Shown: piece by piece, positions 17,303 through 61,544 of the stretch
How positions within the stretch are numbered: the first letter of the stretch is position 1
Layout of the letters: every line of letters starts with the position of its first letter
DNA from: a virus
DNA: 64,000 bases
Reading direction: 5' to 3' (one strand)
IMG/VR virus record: IMGVR_UViG_3300026518_000007
Span: 1 to 64,000 of that record
Position numbers and translations under genes: made by a program
Notes under the pieces: model-generated
Told to the model about the DNA's origin: nothing
What the model saw: only the letters and a program-made list of their open reading frames with translations
Databases searched by the model: none

Positions 17303-17303
17303 C

Positions 17304-17355
17304 ATTCATACACATTACCTGTGATGGGTAATGTGTATATGAATATTTTTTTTTT
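17304..17355 (+). terminator. Strong intrinsic terminator
   Basis: ATTCATACACATTACC/GGTAATGTGTATATGAAT with 11 T. Confidence 0.9.
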
Positions 17356-17658
17356 ACTATGTGTGTTAATATTGAATTAAATATTGTCGAAGATGACCAC
17401 AGTTAAATATAACATTATTGCATCAGTGTAGAAATATACTTGACCTAGTGTTGTTGCGCTCACTGCCATCTAGAGTACCTGTGAGGTGTATTCGTCCCAT
17501 GACATAGCTTGTAGCTTATATCACTGGTCCTTGGAAAGGGACTGGTGATATAAGTAGTAGCGATACAAGTATCAATTCCAGCAGTTACTGGAACAGTGGG
17601 GGAAACGGGGGCAGGGTTTAAATACCTTATGGGTGGTGGTTGGGCGCTGGTGGTGAGC

Positions 17659-17833
17659 GTTAAATATTAATGTTAAATATTAATGTTAATAATAGACAAT
17701 AGTCTAATGTTATTATAGTGTTAAATATATATGATAATAAAATAATGATATAAGAGTGATAATAGATTACTATTAGACTATTGTTAATAATATATGATAG
17801 ATAGATATAGACCAATATTAGACTATTGTTAAT
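17659..17833. repeat. Iteron-like repeats upstream of phuZ
   Basis: GTTAAATATTAAT occurs twice in tandem (17659-17671, 17672-17684). ATTAGACTATTGTTAAT occurs exactly twice in direct orientation (17772-17788, 17817-17833; 45-base spacing), with its 13-base core once inverted (17696-17708). Such clusters are typical of replication origins or partition sites. Confidence 0.7.
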
Positions 17834-18001
17834 GGTAATAATAAAGAATGGAAAGTTATTAAGATAATAGTTTAACGTTATTTAATATTATATAGTTTAA
17901 TATATACAAAGATATAATAGGTGTGAGATAATGATATATGTTATAGATAGTTTAGATGGTATATAGTGATACGGTATCTTAAGTTCTATAAGTATATAGT
18001 T

Positions 18002-18017
18002 ATATATTATTAAGATG
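18002..18017 (+). promoter_or_regulatory. Promoter-like motif ATATATTATTAAGATG
   Basis: One base differs from the recurring motif. It lies 83 bases before the phuZ start. Confidence 0.55.
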
Positions 18018-18099
18018 GGTACTTAGTATCTAAATTAAAAACAAAAGACTATGATAGTACAATACGTAAGTACTATATGGTTAGTAAAGGATATAGAAG

Positions 18100-19128
18100 A
18101 TGAGTGATAGAAGTAATTTACATTTGATAGCATGCGGTGGTGCTGGTATAAATATAGTTAGTGATATATATGGTAAGTTAAGTGGATTGGGTAAATCATA
18201 CGCTAATGTTAGTGTTAGGAGTATAGATACTACCATTAAAACCATACAGGCGCATCCTATGTTAGGGGATACTTTTACTAGGATAGTGTCTTCTAAGTTA
18301 TCTGGTAACGGGTTAGATGGTAGTGGTGGCGAAAGAGCTAACATGGACATCATAGATGAGATACAGGGTTCTGTTAAAGAGTTCATGGATGTAGGGTTGT
18401 CTAATGAGAAGAACGATTATTACGTGATAGTTACTAGTGCTAGTGGTGGTTCTGGTAACCATATAGCTGCTGCATTATTAAAAAATATGTTGGCATTGGA
18501 TTATAACGTTATAGTGGCTGCGGTTGGTGATGGTAGCAATGAGTTAACTCTTAATAATACTGTTAAAACATTAGCTACGTTTTATAAGGTGGCTGTAAAA
18601 GCTGGTGCTGCGTTGCCTGTTATATTTTATAATAATACATATAACGGTATGACTACGTTAAGTACTGAACAAGGTGTTAATGATAAGATAGCTAAGATGT
18701 TAACCATCATATCAGCATTCATATCCGGTAGTGTGCAGAACATAGATAACCAGGACATGATAAACTTTTTTAAGCCTACCAACTATAGAACTTTTAAGAT
18801 AGAACCAGGTATGTATAGTTTAGGTATCGCTAGAGGAGAGCTTAATGATGAGAATACGTTATTAGTAAGAACTCTTGTTAAAGAGGTAGCTGATGATGTT
18901 AAGATGTCTATAGTTCCTAGACATAACAAAACAGGTATAGTTAAAGGGGATATGGCTGATGATTTTGATATCTATCCTATATATCTATTATATAGAAAAC
19001 AGGTCATGAATGATGAGATGAGAAGACTTAAACAAGAGTTGGAGAGCATCAAACGACAACATGAGACCGAGTCTAATGAGTTCGATGAGTTCGATGATAT
19101 GGAAGATGATGATGGCATGGTATTGTAG
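18100..19128 (+). CDS. phuZ: PhuZ, phage tubulin/FtsZ-like cytoskeletal GTPase
   Basis: 342 aa. The Rossmann start ACGGAGINIV (residues 11-20) and the tubulin signature loop SASGGSGNH (113-121, equivalent to GGGTGSG) bind GTP. GVNDKIAKM, with N194-D195, fits the T7 catalytic loop. The tail is strongly acidic and ends E-D-D-D-G-M-V-L, nearly the same as the D-E-D-G-M-V-V end of Pseudomonas phage PhuZ, whose acidic tail is needed for filament assembly. In nucleus-forming phages PhuZ makes dynamic spindles that centre the phage nucleus and carry capsids. It sits alone after a long noncoding region and has its own terminator. A bacterial FtsZ or plasmid TubZ is less likely given the tail. Confidence 0.92.
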   Translation: MSDRSNLHLIACGGAGINIVSDIYGKLSGLGKSYANVSVRSIDTTIKTIQAHPMLGDTFTRIVSSKLSGNGLDGSGGERANMDIIDEIQGSVKEFMDVGLSNEKNDYYVIVTSASGGSGNHIAAALLKNMLALDYNVIVAAVGDGSNELTLNNTVKTLATFYKVAVKAGAALPVIFYNNTYNGMTTLSTEQGVNDKIAKMLTIISAFISGSVQNIDNQDMINFFKPTNYRTFKIEPGMYSLGIARGELNDENTLLVRTLVKEVADDVKMSIVPRHNKTGIVKGDMADDFDIYPIYLLYRKQVMNDEMRRLKQELESIKRQHETESNEFDEFDDMEDDDGMVL

Positions 19129-22595: not shown

Positions 22596-23009
22596 ATGTT
22601 ATTCGATATTGATAATACTTATAATTTTAATACTATAAGTAAAAGTGTTCTTAAACCTAATTACGAAGGTTTAAAAGTTACAAGTTACTTAGGATTTAAA
22701 CAAGCTGTAAAATATACAGGTGTATTTAACGATGTAGTAACTGCTAATAGACAGTTACAGACTGAAACAGGTTTACCGCTACTAGACCCTACGCAGGTTA
22801 AATATGTACTGTTTGAGGATACCTATGGTAATGAGGTATTATTAGCGGAAGATTGGATAGACCCTGATAGTATTATATTAGTAGAAGGCATTAGCTTAAA
22901 TATACGCATAAACAATATAACAAGTGATGATGCGACTATTATTAAAAATATGATAGTAGCTATGAACTATACTGATATAGAAACAGATATCATAACTACT
23001 GGTGCATAA
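22596..23009 (+). CDS. Probable virion/baseplate protein, 137 aa
   Basis: It is a beta-rich protein containing YVLFEDTYGNEVLLAEDWID (residues about 70-89). Its pattern of a short strand, glycine turn and A-D/E-x-W-I resembles small baseplate-associated proteins encoded just before a large baseplate protein in myophages; that is a recollection, not a computed match. It lies two bases ahead of the next gene, so they are co-translated. Confidence 0.6.
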   Translation: MLFDIDNTYNFNTISKSVLKPNYEGLKVTSYLGFKQAVKYTGVFNDVVTANRQLQTETGLPLLDPTQVKYVLFEDTYGNEVLLAEDWIDPDSIILVEGISLNIRINNITSDDATIIKNMIVAMNYTDIETDIITTGA

Positions 23010-46843: not shown

Positions 46844-48277
46844 ATGCCAGTTATACAGAATATAATAAGTCTAGATGATTTACACTCTAGAGTAGAGAAG
46901 AAGATAATGCTAAATGATTTAAAGTTAGAGGAGAGCGGCATCAAGGATTTAATATACTCTACCTATGATGACGAGATATCATTGATACCCCAGTGCTCAT
47001 GCGGTCATTATGCTAAAGGTTACTTATTAGACCGGATATGTCCTGTATGCGGTACGCCTGTTGTAGATATGTCATCTTCTATAGACCCTATCTTATGGGT
47101 TAGAAAGTTTGATGATGAGTTACCTTTTGTTAATCCTAAATTCTGGGTTGATTTAACTAAACTTATTAATACTAAAGTAGACAGTCTACGTTGGCTATCA
47201 GATAGTAGTTATAATCCTCCTAAAGTACCTCCTGTTTTACATAATATAAAAGAACTTATAGGAGGTAGGGAATATATCAATGTTATTAATAATTTAGAGA
47301 AAATCATCATCTATCTTAAACATAACAGTCAGTTCAAAGCTTTTAATAAGCAGATGAAACTTGAGAAATTACATAAGTATTTCATTAAGAAGAAAGATGA
47401 TATATTTTCTACTAATCTACCTCTTATTAATAAGAAACTGTTCGTAGTTGAAAATACTAATAAAGGTAATTATACTAACCTACTATTAGCAGATATCATA
47501 GATTTAGCACTACTAGCTATAACTACTAACACTGATGTCAATGCTACTAAGAAAAAGTTAGGTAGGAATACAGCTAAACTTATATCATTATCTGCTAATC
47601 TTTATGTGGATTATGTTAAGAACTTTGTTAGTAAGAAAGGAGGATTATCTAGAAAGAATATATTCGGTACTAGAGCACACTTCACATTTAGAACAGTTAT
47701 CTCAACATTACGTTCTGAATTTGAATATGATACTATACATGTACCATGGGATATAGGACTAACTACTTTTAGACCACATGTGCTAAATAAACTTTATGCA
47801 TTAGGTTATAATCATAAAGATGCTAGTGCGTTAGTGTATGAATCTACATTTAACTATAACGAAGTTATAGATAAAATTTTACAGGAACTCATAGATGAAT
47901 CTCCGTATAAAGGAATACCTGTTCTAGCTAATAGAAATCCTAGTTTGGGTGTAGGTAGTATAGTTAAAGTTTTTATAACTAGATTTAAGACTAATGTACA
48001 TGACCATACTACAGGTTTTCCATTACCGCTGATGCCATCGTTAAACGCAGATGTGGATGGAGATGAATTAAACTTTACAGTATTAACGGACAATATGCTA
48101 GCAGAGTTGGCTGAGGCATTTAACCCATTTAGAAATGTACCAGAGTTGGATATATACAAAATAAGTGGTAACCTTAATATAGCTAAAACTTCTATATTAA
48201 CACTTATGTCTTACTTGGATACTAATGAAGAAGCTGAGGATGAAGAAGACTTAGTTTATGACATGTTAACTATGTGA
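46844..48277 (+). CDS. Phage RNA polymerase beta-prime N-terminal fragment
   Basis: 477 aa. A zinc knuckle reads C51-x-C53...C66-P-V-C69. KKGGLSRKNIFGTRAHFTFRTVIS parallels the beta-prime segment [29 protein letters not shown] parallels the template-binding NRAPTLH. NADVDGDEL (residues 401-409) is the catalytic NADFDGD motif, with all three Mg-binding Asp (403, 405, 407) kept and Phe changed to Val. In phiKZ-like phages beta-prime is split, and this piece would form part of a virion or non-virion polymerase; which one cannot be decided here. Confidence 0.85.
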   Translation: MPVIQNIISLDDLHSRVEKKIMLNDLKLEESGIKDLIYSTYDDEISLIPQCSCGHYAKGYLLDRICPVCGTPVVDMSSSIDPILWVRKFDDELPFVNPKFWVDLTKLINTKVDSLRWLSDSSYNPPKVPPVLHNIKELIGGREYINVINNLEKIIIYLKHNSQFKAFNKQMKLEKLHKYFIKKKDDIFSTNLPLINKKLFVVENTNKGNYTNLLLADIIDLALLAITTNTDVNATKKKLGRNTAKLISLSANLYVDYVKNFVSKKGGLSRKNIFGTRAHFTFRTVISTLRSEFEYDTIHVPWDIGLTTFRPHVLNKLYALGYNHKDASALVYESTFNYNEVIDKILQELIDESPYKGIPVLANRNPSLGVGSIVKVFITRFKTNVHDHTTGFPLPLMPSLNADVDGDELNFTVLTDNMLAELAEAFNPFRNVPELDIYKISGNLNIAKTSILTLMSYLDTNEEAEDEEDLVYDMLTM

Positions 48278-53398: not shown

Positions 53399-53647
53399 AT
53401 GAGAGATGCTAAAGGTTTTTTTAATGGGTCATTAGTTAACCCAAGTGCCTTATATAAAACAGGTGATGTTGTTAAGTTGTTGAAAGTATTAAGACATGAT
53501 TATTCTATAACTAGTAATACTAATGATATTAGTAATTTACCAGTTAAATATGTTATGGAGAATTCACGAGGTGAGTGTGAGTTGTTAAATGTTCTTAATG
53601 CAATTATACCTAACTGTTATTTCCAACATTGTAATAAGGTAGCATAA
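53399..53647 (+). CDS. Hypothetical protein, 82 aa
   Basis: Function not recognised. It is cysteine-containing (three Cys in the C-terminal half, including CYFQHC). AGGAG precedes the ATG. Its stop shares a base with the next start (TAATG). Confidence 0.72.
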   Translation: MRDAKGFFNGSLVNPSALYKTGDVVKLLKVLRHDYSITSNTNDISNLPVKYVMENSRGECELLNVLNAIIPNCYFQHCNKVA

Positions 53648-54447
53648 TGTCTGCCGTTAAGTATGCCTTAGATAGATTATCTTTAGAGATACCATCTGAG
53701 ATATTGAATTTAGCTTTTATGCGTAAAGCTACAGTTTATAGCATACCTACGACTTTAGAGAAACAGATAACTGATTTAGTTATAGAACCTATCGTTTTAA
53801 AAGACTGTAATCTTATAGGAGGTATAGAATTAACTATACCTGTTAATGGATGTAATGTAACATATTACGAACACGCTATGAATCAGAGAAACTTAGTCAT
53901 AAGCGTTCCTTATGAACTTACTAATAATAAGAAGGTATTAAATGCATTATCATTAACAGCTAATGTTACATATACTAATATGACTAATACATCTGGTAAC
54001 CCACTTATTAATAGTGCTAATAATGTAATGTACCATATGGGTAGTGTCGGCTCGTCTACAGTTATAACTAACTTGGAGCTTATAGCGCCTAACGTTATAT
54101 TAGTACATGATAACGTAATGGCTATAGCGAACGGGTTCCTAAGAATCATAGTTGAGAATAATAGTAACCTTAGTAATTTACAACCATCTTCTTATATAGC
54201 ATTTTCTGAATTAGTAACATATGCTGTTAAAGCTTTTATTTATAATAAGTTAGTTATAGCTTTAGATAAAGGTGAGTTATATAACGGTCATGAACTAAGT
54301 AAAGTTAGTGATATAGTTGATGATTACTCCTCTGCATTAGAGGATTATAAAACATTCTTAAAAGAGAAAATGGCTAAGATACTATTTATGAATAATTCGG
54401 TATCTATGTCTAGATATATACAAGGTATGGTTAGCCCATTTATTTAA
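53647..54447 (+). CDS. Probable virion protein, 266 aa
   Basis: Function not recognised. The N-terminal two thirds are beta-rich with many N/T turns, and the C-terminus is helical. It is coupled to the 82-aa gene. The unit 52222-54447 ends at a strong terminator just ahead of the chmA control region. Confidence 0.7.
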   Translation: MSAVKYALDRLSLEIPSEILNLAFMRKATVYSIPTTLEKQITDLVIEPIVLKDCNLIGGIELTIPVNGCNVTYYEHAMNQRNLVISVPYELTNNKKVLNALSLTANVTYTNMTNTSGNPLINSANNVMYHMGSVGSSTVITNLELIAPNVILVHDNVMAIANGFLRIIVENNSNLSNLQPSSYIAFSELVTYAVKAFIYNKLVIALDKGELYNGHELSKVSDIVDDYSSALEDYKTFLKEKMAKILFMNNSVSMSRYIQGMVSPFI

Positions 54448-54814: not shown

Positions 54815-56626
54815 ATGGCAATTCAAAGAGGAATTAAAACAGGCGTAGAAACAGAAGTAAATGTAGAACAAGCAACTGCAGCACAAAACAATTTAGAAGA
54901 TATGTTCGTAGATGACCAACGTACAGATAACGGTGAGCAGTTTCAAGATTTGATTAGTCTTGATAGTATCCTTATCTCTGATAAAGCGGATGGTGAAGTT
55001 TTAGAAGATGCGGGTAAAGCATTTTTGAAAGGTATCGAGTCTAAAAAGATTGATGTTAAAATAGCAACTATTAATAAAGATGCATATGACTTAGGTTATT
55101 CATTCGTACTTATGTATTATAAAGGAAGTAATGGTAAGGTTTACTACTTCATGTCACTACTTGAAGCTACAGGTCGTGCGCCAGTTACAGTTAAACAAAT
55201 CATTGCAGAAATGAACATTAAAAACAGTATTGCTATCCTTGTAACATCTGATGCATTTAATGATTATCTATATGAGCAAATTGAAAAGACTCTTAGAAAA
55301 GAGTTCAATGATGCACCACTTGTATCTTTAGAGGGCGTAGTTATCCCTACTGATGCTAACATTGAGACAACATGCGAAATCATTGCTAAATATGGCCATG
55401 ACCTTATCGCTCTTAAAGAGCTAGTTGAAACTGGTAAGGCTAGAGATATCACTGCTGCTGATATTCGTAAAGTAACTTCAAACTCAAATCTTACACTTGA
55501 TGTAATCATGAACACTGGTCTTACTATCAATAAGTTAGGTAGAACGGTTCGTACAGATTTCAATGTTGAAACTAACGTAGTCCGTAATGGTAATGTTCGT
55601 GATTTTCACGGAACTAACTCTAGAAAAATGCTTGCTACAACTGCTGGTTATTTAGAGTATATCATTTCTGAAGATGTTATTCCATATACACAACAAATCA
55701 AACGTACAGCAAAACCAATGATTATACTTAATGAGTTCTTAGGTAAAGCTCCAACTATGGGTTATACTTTACTATCTCTTATCAATGCTGCAACATTCAC
55801 TAACAGACAACAACTAAGTGCTCTTATCATTGAGAAAGATGCTGGCCCACTTAACTACTTGTTTAACTATAAAGGTGATGGTGCTGGTTTTGGAGATAAG
55901 CTATCTTTTAAAGACCCTAAAGCTAAACCTGAAATCATCAATGATATCATTCGTACGCATATCAGCTCTTCTCCTATCTTCGCAGTTGAAGTTGAATTAT
56001 ATGGTGCAAGTTATTCATATATGACTCCGTTCGTAGGTTTAAGTATTCCAAGTGCTACACAACGTGCTACTAATGATATCTTATCTGCTGCAGAACGTTT
56101 AGTCGGAAGTAAGTTTGAAACTAACGCAGTTGCAGCTAATGAAGGTTTCTTAGTACCTATTGGTAACTATGTAGATGCTGATGGTAATACAAGAGATATT
56201 CGTGAAATCGATACAACATTTATCGCTAAGTATACTAATGAACCAGCGTTGATTTTTGAATGGATTTTCTCTAACTTACCATCTCACATTTGTGAAAGTC
56301 ATACTGGTAAACAACCTTATATTCTTAAATTAGAAGTGATTGATAAAATTGCTACTATTCTTAACTTACAGGTTACTATTACTGGTAAAGCGGTACGTGT
56401 TCCACTACATGGTAGATTTGTAGAAGAGTTAGTACAAAAAGCTATGGCTGCTGGTTATGCTCCAAGTACTGAAGGTAATCCAATCGGTTATAACGATTTC
56501 AATAACTTACAATTTGTAGCGCAAGCATACAACGGTGCTTCTGTATCTAATACAGGTTTCGCAGCACAGCAAATGGGTAGCGCAGGTTTCATGGGTAATT
56601 TCAATAACATGAAATATCGCGGTTAA
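54815..56626 (+). CDS. chmA: Chimallin (ChmA), phage nucleus shell protein homologue
   Basis: 603 aa; known chimallins are about 600-630 aa. Compared from memory with Pseudomonas phage 201phi2-1 chimallin, landmarks occur in the same order. VVIPTDANIE...HDLIALKEL matches its IPADLVL...CDDILAL. VRTDFNVETNVVRNGNV matches its RADIVVTTQRVRRNGQ. FLVPIGNYVDADGNTRDI (about 445-462) matches its QVIDLGNWFDGDEKRD. VTITGKAVRVPLHGRFVEEL (about 520-540) matches its VTYTGKAERCTYNAKFIEAL. The C-terminus is flexible and G/N/Q rich, as in chimallin tails. ChmA lattices enclose phage DNA away from host nucleases. Codon use (CGT, ATC, CTT) points to very high expression. A major capsid protein was considered and rejected. 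Confidence 0.85.
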   Translation: MAIQRGIKTGVETEVNVEQATAAQNNLEDMFVDDQRTDNGEQFQDLISLDSILISDKADGEVLEDAGKAFLKGIESKKIDVKIATINKDAYDLGYSFVLMYYKGSNGKVYYFMSLLEATGRAPVTVKQIIAEMNIKNSIAILVTSDAFNDYLYEQIEKTLRKEFNDAPLVSLEGVVIPTDANIETTCEIIAKYGHDLIALKELVETGKARDITAADIRKVTSNSNLTLDVIMNTGLTINKLGRTVRTDFNVETNVVRNGNVRDFHGTNSRKMLATTAGYLEYIISEDVIPYTQQIKRTAKPMIILNEFLGKAPTMGYTLLSLINAATFTNRQQLSALIIEKDAGPLNYLFNYKGDGAGFGDKLSFKDPKAKPEIINDIIRTHISSSPIFAVEVELYGASYSYMTPFVGLSIPSATQRATNDILSAAERLVGSKFETNAVAANEGFLVPIGNYVDADGNTRDIREIDTTFIAKYTNEPALIFEWIFSNLPSHICESHTGKQPYILKLEVIDKIATILNLQVTITGKAVRVPLHGRFVEELVQKAMAAGYAPSTEGNPIGYNDFNNLQFVAQAYNGASVSNTGFAAQQMGSAGFMGNFNNMKYRG

Positions 56627-56717: not shown

Positions 56718-57266
56718 ATGGATATATATACATACGTAGAAGAGGCTAAGAAAACTGAGTCTATTAAACAACCACTTAAAGAATTAGTTGTAGAAGATAC
56801 TGGATTAACGAATCGTATGTTGCATTCGATTATGGGAATTGTTACAGAGTCTACTGAAATAATGGCAGCAGCACGCGCTAATGATAGAGTTAATTTTTTA
56901 GAAGAGTGCGGTGATACATTTTGGTATCTAGCTATTTTAGCAGATGAGTTAGATATTGTAAGTGAGCTAGAAAATATAGATGATTTTGAACCAGCTGTTA
57001 AAGAGAGAACTGATTTATTAGATGTTTGTAAAAAAGCTCTATTTTATGGCTCTAAAGTAAATTTAGATGTTTTTAAACTAGAAACTATTAAAATGTATAA
57101 AGGCATTTGCTCATCTGTAGAGATAAATGGCGGAGATGTTGAAACTGTACAACTTACCAACATCAAAAAATTAAAAGCTAGATACCCTGATAAGTTCACT
57201 GATAGAGATGCTGAAAATAGAGATTTAACTAAAGAGCGTGAGATACTTGAAGACGGTCTTAACTAA
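56718..57266 (+). CDS. MazG-like nucleotide pyrophosphohydrolase
   Basis: 182 aa. The metal-binding acids of the all-alpha NTP pyrophosphatase fold are visible: TESTE (residues 43-47) and EECGDTFWY (62-70), the E-x-x-E...E-x-x-D pattern. The ending KLKARYPDKFTDRDAENRD is typical of phage MazG-like proteins. They remove non-canonical or excess nucleotides, or adjust the alarmone and dNTP pools. It sits 12 bases before thyX, fitting a nucleotide-metabolism pair. Confidence 0.85.
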   Translation: MDIYTYVEEAKKTESIKQPLKELVVEDTGLTNRMLHSIMGIVTESTEIMAAARANDRVNFLEECGDTFWYLAILADELDIVSELENIDDFEPAVKERTDLLDVCKKALFYGSKVNLDVFKLETIKMYKGICSSVEINGGDVETVQLTNIKKLKARYPDKFTDRDAENRDLTKEREILEDGLN

Positions 57267-59417: not shown

Positions 59418-61544
59418 ATGAAAAAAATAAGCAAGTATTTTAAAAATAAGCCAGAATTTTATGTGAATGATGTTGACCCAATAAGACATTATTTAGAAAT
59501 AGGTAATTACTTTTTAAAAACTATGAAAGATAGTACATTAGATTATAAAGATAAAATAAAAACTTTTATTAAAGAAATAAAAAGCTTTAAAGACCCTACT
59601 GTCTATTTTTACGAACGGGATATTAATGGTAAAAAGAATAAAAGTAAAACATCTTTATCTTCATATATTAAATATGTTAAAGATACTGGTGATATCATAG
59701 TACCGTCATTTACGGTATATTTTAGTAAGGATAAGAAAGCTTCACTACACGCTGACTTTATTGGGAACAATATTAAAGAGCGCTCTAAACATAAAAAGCT
59801 TGCGTTTAAATACAAGATGAATAAGCAATTCGAACAATTCGAGTATCATAATACCATACAGAAAGTTAAGAAGATTTTTAATAACTCATTATCAGGAGCA
59901 TATGCATCAGCGGGTACTGTTTTAAATAACCCATCTGCACATTATACATTAACATCTATAACAAGATGTGTTTCAGGAATAGGTAATGCATTAAGTGAAT
60001 CTATCATATCTGGTAATAAACATTATAAGGACCCTGATGTTACATTAGAACATTTAGTAACCATAGCTTATTCAACTCCTACTGAAGAAGTTGAACGAGT
60101 CATACATAAATATAATATTCATATACCTACGGCAGATGAGGTCATGGCTTCAGTTATTAAATCATCTAGTAAGTATTGGAGGAATTTAGAAAAAGAGAGA
60201 ATAATATTTGATTTTTTAAATAGAATAGACGGATTTAAAAGAGCATTTATTTTATATAGTAATGACATGTATCATTTTAGAACATATAACCCTGACTTAA
60301 TGAGAGGAGTTATAGCAGAAGCTACTACAAAAGTCCTTATAACCAAAACAGAAGAAGAGTATGATGATATTTTAAACTTAACGGATGAATGGATTTATAA
60401 TACTGCTGCTCTAATGTGTATTAGTGATTTAAGAGGTAAGAAAAGGGATGATTTTACTTTAGTAGATAAACGTAATATGGCTTCAGCTATAATTGGTTTT
60501 ACTAATACTATAGATAAGTATGGTGATATATTTAAATTATTTTTAGTAACTAATATATTTCCAGTTTCTATAACCGATATTAAAGATATGGTTAGGGAAG
60601 CTATAGTATTATCAGATACAGATAGTACTTGTTCCAGTTATGGTAGCTGGGTAGATTGGTATTTTAATAAACCTACATTTAGTGATAATGGGTTAGCCGT
60701 TAGTTCAGTTATCATTGCGTTAGTTACACAATCTATGGACCATTACATTAAACTATTTGCAGGTAACATGAACGTTAAGTATGAAGATGCTCAATCTTTA
60801 GAAATGAAGAATGAGTTCGTATGGGATGTTTTTGTTAATACTAATGTCTCTAAACATTATTTTGCTAATGTAGTATCTCAAGAGGGTAACATTTATGCTA
60901 TAGATTTAAAGAAATCATTAGAGCGTAAAGGCGTTAACTTAATAGCGCCTAATGCATACCAGCCTATACGTGATATGGCTGAAGAGATGATGATAGATAT
61001 CATGAACACTACATTTAAAAAAGAGACGGTTCCATTAACTAAATATCTTAATAAAGTATTAGAAGCAGAAGAGATTATTAAAGACCTAGTATATAAAGGT
61101 TCGCCTGATGTTTTAAAACTTGAAAAGATAAAGGATGCTAAAGGTTATAAGAAAGGGGAATTAGAATCTCCTTATACACACTATATTTTATGGAATAAAG
61201 TTTTTAAGCCATTATACGGAGATGCACCTAAACCTACATTTATGGCTGTTAAATTTCCTACTACCATAAATAGTAAAAATGATATGAATATATTCTTAGA
61301 TAGCTGCGATGAAGAGTTCCGTAATAACTTTAAAGATTACTTAACATTAAGTGGTAAAAGTGAGATTAAGGTTTTTAGACTACCGTTAATAGTAACGCAC
61401 ACTAAAGGTATACCTAAAGAGTTACTACCTATTATATCTACAGATAGGGTTATCATAGATAATTGTAGAGTTCTTTATATGGTATTAGAGACATTAGGAT
61501 TTTTTATAAAACCTGATGAAACTTTAACTAATATGTTAAAATGA
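59418..61544 (+). CDS. Family B DNA polymerase, palm/thumb part of a split enzyme
   Basis: 708 aa. Motif B is visible as KKIFNNSLSGAYASAG (residues 151-166), the K-x3-N-S-x-Y-G-like block. Motif C is LSDTDSTCSS (398-407), with Asp400 and Asp402 as Mg ligands. Thumb-like K-M/K-x-K and ERKGVNLIAPNAYQP follow. No 3'-5' exonuclease motifs or clear motif A occur here, so the exonuclease and motif A must lie in another gene outside this window, as in phiKZ-like phages with divided polymerases. It would be the replicative polymerase in the phage nucleus. Confidence 0.8.
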   Translation: MKKISKYFKNKPEFYVNDVDPIRHYLEIGNYFLKTMKDSTLDYKDKIKTFIKEIKSFKDPTVYFYERDINGKKNKSKTSLSSYIKYVKDTGDIIVPSFTVYFSKDKKASLHADFIGNNIKERSKHKKLAFKYKMNKQFEQFEYHNTIQKVKKIFNNSLSGAYASAGTVLNNPSAHYTLTSITRCVSGIGNALSESIISGNKHYKDPDVTLEHLVTIAYSTPTEEVERVIHKYNIHIPTADEVMASVIKSSSKYWRNLEKERIIFDFLNRIDGFKRAFILYSNDMYHFRTYNPDLMRGVIAEATTKVLITKTEEEYDDILNLTDEWIYNTAALMCISDLRGKKRDDFTLVDKRNMASAIIGFTNTIDKYGDIFKLFLVTNIFPVSITDIKDMVREAIVLSDTDSTCSSYGSWVDWYFNKPTFSDNGLAVSSVIIALVTQSMDHYIKLFAGNMNVKYEDAQSLEMKNEFVWDVFVNTNVSKHYFANVVSQEGNIYAIDLKKSLERKGVNLIAPNAYQPIRDMAEEMMIDIMNTTFKKETVPLTKYLNKVLEAEEIIKDLVYKGSPDVLKLEKIKDAKGYKKGELESPYTHYILWNKVFKPLYGDAPKPTFMAVKFPTTINSKNDMNIFLDSCDEEFRNNFKDYLTLSGKSEIKVFRLPLIVTHTKGIPKELLPIISTDRVIIDNCRVLYMVLETLGFFIKPDETLTNMLK

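Follow-up and report, generated by a model that had tools for sequence, protein, structure and literature searches.

PhuZ is an established family of tubulins encoded by viruses. In bacteria infected with certain giant phages, these proteins move the nucleus-like compartment that the phages build. Characterised members form different arrays, including the spindle of Pseudomonas phages, the vortex of Goslar and the five-stranded tubes of RAY (PMC10299810, PMC12908238), the last of which were tentatively assigned (PMC10299810). PhuZ is encoded by an accessory gene, present in 66% of chimalliviruses and absent from about a third (PMC10299810). For the PhuZ of 201phi2-1, the D190A variant abolished filament dynamics (PMC4244570), and two salt bridges, R217:D305 and E225:R290, were reported to be essential for assembly (PMC10299810). 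The same salt bridges are absent from RAY PhuZ, which still forms filaments in vivo (PMC10299810).

Analysis of the window, which comprises the first 64,000 nucleotides of a 99,325-base IMG/VR fragment, revealed an ORF at 18100..19128 (+), beginning with ATG and encoding 342 amino acids, that is almost certainly the phuZ gene of an uncultivated chimallivirus with AT-rich DNA (28.5% GC), encoding a PhuZ-family tubulin. The protein matched PHROG 4733 ('tubulin PhuZ') over its full length (residues 4-342 of the protein's 342 aligned to model positions 3-323 of 323) with E=3.4e-44, a match far beyond chance, as is also indicated by relatives of 38-50% identity in other contigs with conserved neighbours. 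A phmmer search of the PDB with the single sequence recovered PhuZ of 201phi2-1, phiKZ and Goslar (9pm9), and the same search gave no match at E<=1 to FtsZ, TubZ or tubulin. With a profile built from the clade described below, PDB matches to PhuZ scored 39-53 bits, and the next protein, gamma-tubulin, scored about 12 bits (maximum 12.4, E=0.64). An AlphaFold model computed from nine clade sequences (mean pLDDT 82.8, pTM 0.85) showed a GTPase domain, helix H7 (residues 187-208), an activation domain, a helix at residues 302-329 and a disordered tail. When this model was compared with known structures using Foldseek, five PhuZ structures occupied ranks 1-5, with Goslar PhuZ the best (E=1.2e-19), followed at lower ranks by CetZ (1e-10), FtsZ (1e-9) and TubZ (1.8e-9).

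The sequence motifs agree with this assignment. The T1/G-box residues CGGAGIN lie at positions 12-18, the T4 GTP-binding loop SASGGSG at residues 113-119 (18436..18456, +), and the T7 loop, NIDNQDMINFF, carries the catalytic aspartates D216 and D219 (18745..18756, +), equivalents of 201phi2-1 D187 and D190. The sequence-only reading, which had reported a tubulin/FtsZ GTP loop and a T7-like loop, was thus right on both. In an alignment of 15 PhuZ of cultured phages, G13, G14, G116, G119, D216 and D219 were invariant, and the two aspartates showed no variation in any of the 45 aligned PhuZ (45/45). Immediately 5' of phuZ, about 800 bp (17303-18099) lacked any ORF of 60 amino acids, and a promoter scan of the upstream region gave no signal above that of shuffled sequences. 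A symmetrical 13-pair stem at 17307-17339 marks the end of the gene preceding phuZ.

Although the assignment to PhuZ is firm, the protein is distant from all described members. Its best matches in cultured phages were 22-29% identical, and characterised PhuZ proteins just 19-25%. A direct scan of IMG/VR with the PhuZ protein alone found no relative, a Megablast of 24 kb against phages gave no match, and the DNA polymerase on its own had no match in GTDB genomes. Relatives were instead reached via the DNA polymerase and then a clade alignment, the 15-member PhuZ alignment being too diverse for search patterns; scanning the GTDB genomes with the clade alignment returned two Mariprofundaceae MAG contigs (L154 and L155). 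These two loci, whose PhuZ are 31-34% identical to that of the window, and five IMG/VR contigs (L156-L160; 30-50%) are the nearest relatives, seven in all, with an overall range of 29-50% identity. Two further PhuZ matches, in L117 (G043) and at G009:33250-34182, were each broken by one TAA and could represent pseudogenes, frame errors or an alternative code.

In a maximum likelihood phylogeny of 46 rows, which included E. coli FtsZ and left out TubZ, the window PhuZ and its seven relatives formed an eight-row clade inside PhuZ with support of 100/100. The clade has a long stem (1.24 changes per column) and lies far from the phiKZ/201phi2-1 (Pseudomonas) group. These data bear on the possibility that the ORF is instead a host-derived FtsZ or a plasmid or phage TubZ, recruited for example for division inhibition or DNA partition. 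Such an origin would be consistent with the superfamily fold common to all of these proteins, with the weak signal from the general Pfam tubulin/FtsZ model (18.6 bits, under its cut-off) and with the matches of the model to TubZ and FtsZ at E ~1e-9, but PhuZ came ahead in each profile, PDB and fold comparison, and a search of 72,556 plasmids returned nothing, even with the threshold relaxed to E<=10. Moreover, E. coli FtsZ fell outside all PhuZ on a very long branch in the tree, and the Mariprofundaceae MAGs that contain PhuZ also encode a distinct FtsZ, 54-57% identical to that of E. coli. We therefore regard recruitment of FtsZ or TubZ as barely credible. The profile search against PhuZ, FtsZ and TubZ proposed by the sequence-only reading favoured PhuZ over both others, and the grouping with host FtsZ or plasmid TubZ that was to count against that reading did not appear, FtsZ being set apart by profile, fold and tree, and TubZ by fold and profile. 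The gene is a genuine but distant PhuZ in a poorly known AT-rich phage branch, and thus widens a known family rather than representing a new kind of system.

The C-terminus also conforms to the family. The AlphaFold secondary structure predicts a long C-terminal helix at residues 302-329 (19003..19086, +), corresponding to the H11 helix described in phiKZ and 201phi2-1 PhuZ (PMC3678025), followed by a disordered acidic tail at residues 330-342 (19087..19125, +), DEFDDMEDDDGMVL, the equivalent of the PhuZ acidic knuckle. Model confidence was low across residues 328-342 (pLDDT <50). The final 20 residues include 10 acidic and no basic ones, and no other of the 59 non-overlapping ORFs in the window has a C-terminus as acidic. 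The protein terminates in EDDDGMVL, exactly as the sequence-only reading had stated. That reading had also taken the tail to match Pseudomonas phage PhuZ, but the match is not specific to those phages. An end motif G-[MLIFW] within the last six residues was present in 36 of 45 PhuZ, compared to 4 of the 93 remaining ORFs examined in the window's own record, and a terminal G-[ML]-[VI]-[LVF] is found family-wide, indicating that the tail characterises the family as a whole rather than the Pseudomonas phages; the tree position, far from the Pseudomonas clade, points the same way. For example, 201phi2-1 PhuZ ends in DEDGMVV, that of phiKZ in TSSGLVFD and that of Xanthomonas phage LucasX in GDDGMIL, and many metagenomic PhuZ also carry the end motif.

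The genes surrounding phuZ place the contig among the chimalliviruses. The window encodes a divergent ChmA nuclear shell protein (54815..56626, +; phrog_4795, E=1.6e-27), only 21-22% identical to those of the nearest cultured phages; the phrog_4795 model had no matches in 14 control genomes. Also present are orthologues of the phiKZ gp50 DNA polymerase (59418..61544, +; phrog_2927, E=3.7e-162; phmmer E=2.9e-78) and of the phiKZ gp55 non-virion RNA polymerase subunit (46844..48277, +; phrog_2987, E=1.3e-105; phmmer E=5.5e-51). Further along the contig, positions 81148-92417 hold orthologues of phiKZ gp65, gp66, gp68, gp69, gp70 and RNAP in phiKZ order, gp69 being PicA (PMC12571901); within this block PicA, the sigma-like gp68, gp70 and RNAP span 84457-92417. 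The co-occurrence of ChmA, the DNA polymerase, RNAP subunits and the gp65-66-68-PicA-gp70-RNAP block identifies the contig as a chimallivirus fragment and, together with the profile, fold and tree results, bears out the earlier proposal that the ORF is the PhuZ of a chimallin-encoding phage. Of 50 virus records related through the polymerase, many of which are fragments, 40 contained ChmA and 35 PhuZ, the latter in line with the published frequency of PhuZ in chimalliviruses.

Gene order around phuZ is partly retained. The phiKZ gp49 orthologue (phrog_3235; 22596..23009, +), a conserved PhuZ neighbour, lies a few genes downstream of PhuZ in the window and in all seven relatives, as gp49 itself does in phiKZ, indicating that the PhuZ neighbourhood is conserved. 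L154, L155, L159 and L160 share with phiKZ a DNA polymerase gene placed after phrog_3235, whereas in the window the two are 36 kb apart. Likewise, the phiKZ gp42 orthologue (phrog_3179; 53647..54447, +) adjoins PhuZ in most cultured phages examined but adjoins ChmA in the window. Three other features of the contig were noted. A MazG-like pyrophosphatase gene (56718-57266) lies directly 3' of ChmA. A 213-amino-acid ORF without a PHROG match (G000 83794-84435; L020:4294-4935) occupies the ChmC position between the gp66 and gp68 orthologues and is a candidate divergent ChmC. Finally, in a helicase ORF beyond the window (phrog_16; L020:15930-18191, contig ~95430-97691), residues 120-228 also matched terminase, primase and helicase-loader families; these additional matches fall at unrelated profile positions and probably reflect an intein.

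Most likely, and by analogy with characterised PhuZ (PMC4244570, PMC3678025, PMC12908238), the monomer would bind GTP through its N-terminal domain and polymerise head-to-tail, with D216 and D219 of each subunit completing the active site for GTP hydrolysis in the subunit that follows. Contacts along the adjacent subunit, made by the long H11 helix and the acidic tail, would stabilise the protofilament, and the filament would owe its dynamics to GTP hydrolysis. During infection, such filaments may position the phage nucleus within its ChmA boundary, rotate it, or do both, and bring capsids to it. GTPase activity, polymerisation and nucleus movement are thus predictions carried over from characterised PhuZ. 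The sequence-only reading had gone further, viewing ChmA and PhuZ as a complete nucleus-spindle system. ChmA is indeed present, but completeness would be an extrapolation, as arrays differ among PhuZ and a sequence search of the contig for ChmC (phiKZ gp67) gave no match.

The subunit interface is where the window PhuZ departs from the 201phi2-1 model. By alignment, uncertain by a few residues in the R217 region, the two 201phi2-1 bridges map to E247:D332 and N252:R319, so that one residue of each pair is changed (R217 to E247 and E225 to N252) and assembly may differ. Loss of these residues, and the fast evolution of the clade evident from its stem, could be read as a PhuZ without filament dynamics that serves another role, such as a static scaffold or a capsid-handling protein. 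We consider this highly improbable given that both T7 aspartates, the GTP loop and the tail are retained, and that RAY PhuZ forms its filaments without the same bridges. A dynamic filament is therefore the preferred reading, and the 201phi2-1-type salt bridges are not family-defining. The changed bridge residues, taken with the RAY precedent, indicate that strand number and array shape are not predictable from 201phi2-1.

In both Mariprofundaceae MAG contigs, L154 (JAUZQM010000048.1) and L155 (JAUZQU010000026.1), PhuZ was found with a chimallivirus DNA polymerase; ChmA was not found elsewhere in the two MAGs. These sister loci could belong to nucleus-forming phages of Zetaproteobacteria, and through their binning they hint weakly at hosts beyond Gammaproteobacteria. 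The two contigs have a GC content of ~42%, compared to 28.5% for the window. A bolder proposal, to which we attach little confidence, is that the window comes from a deeply branching, AT-rich lineage of chimalliviruses with hosts outside the usual Gammaproteobacteria, a different PhuZ subunit interface and an array unlike the three- and five-stranded types.

In sum, these results leave the concept of the phage nucleus and spindle unchanged, and widen the known range of both PhuZ and chimallin by a divergent lineage, with seven additional PhuZ relatives. These relatives separate universal PhuZ traits, namely the GTP loop, the T7 aspartates and the acidic G-M/L-V-L tail, from the lineage-specific salt bridges of 201phi2-1, and would help to test which residues determine strand number and array shape. 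Compared with known systems, the window PhuZ is closest in fold to Goslar PhuZ (TM 0.77/0.80), which also gave the best PDB sequence match when residues 1-287 or the clade profile served as query and has the GTP loop and T7 aspartates in common with it, despite ~20% identity. With 201phi2-1 gp59 (3R4V) and phiKZ gp39 (3ZBP/3ZBQ) it shares full-length homology, H11 and the acidic knuckle tail, but it differs from them in the non-conserved R217 and E225, a longer T3 region and a distant tree branch. In contrast, TubZ (of c-st phage and B. thuringiensis) and FtsZ/CetZ share with it the tubulin/FtsZ superfamily fold, but match its fold roughly ten orders of magnitude more weakly than PhuZ does and gave no single-sequence match.
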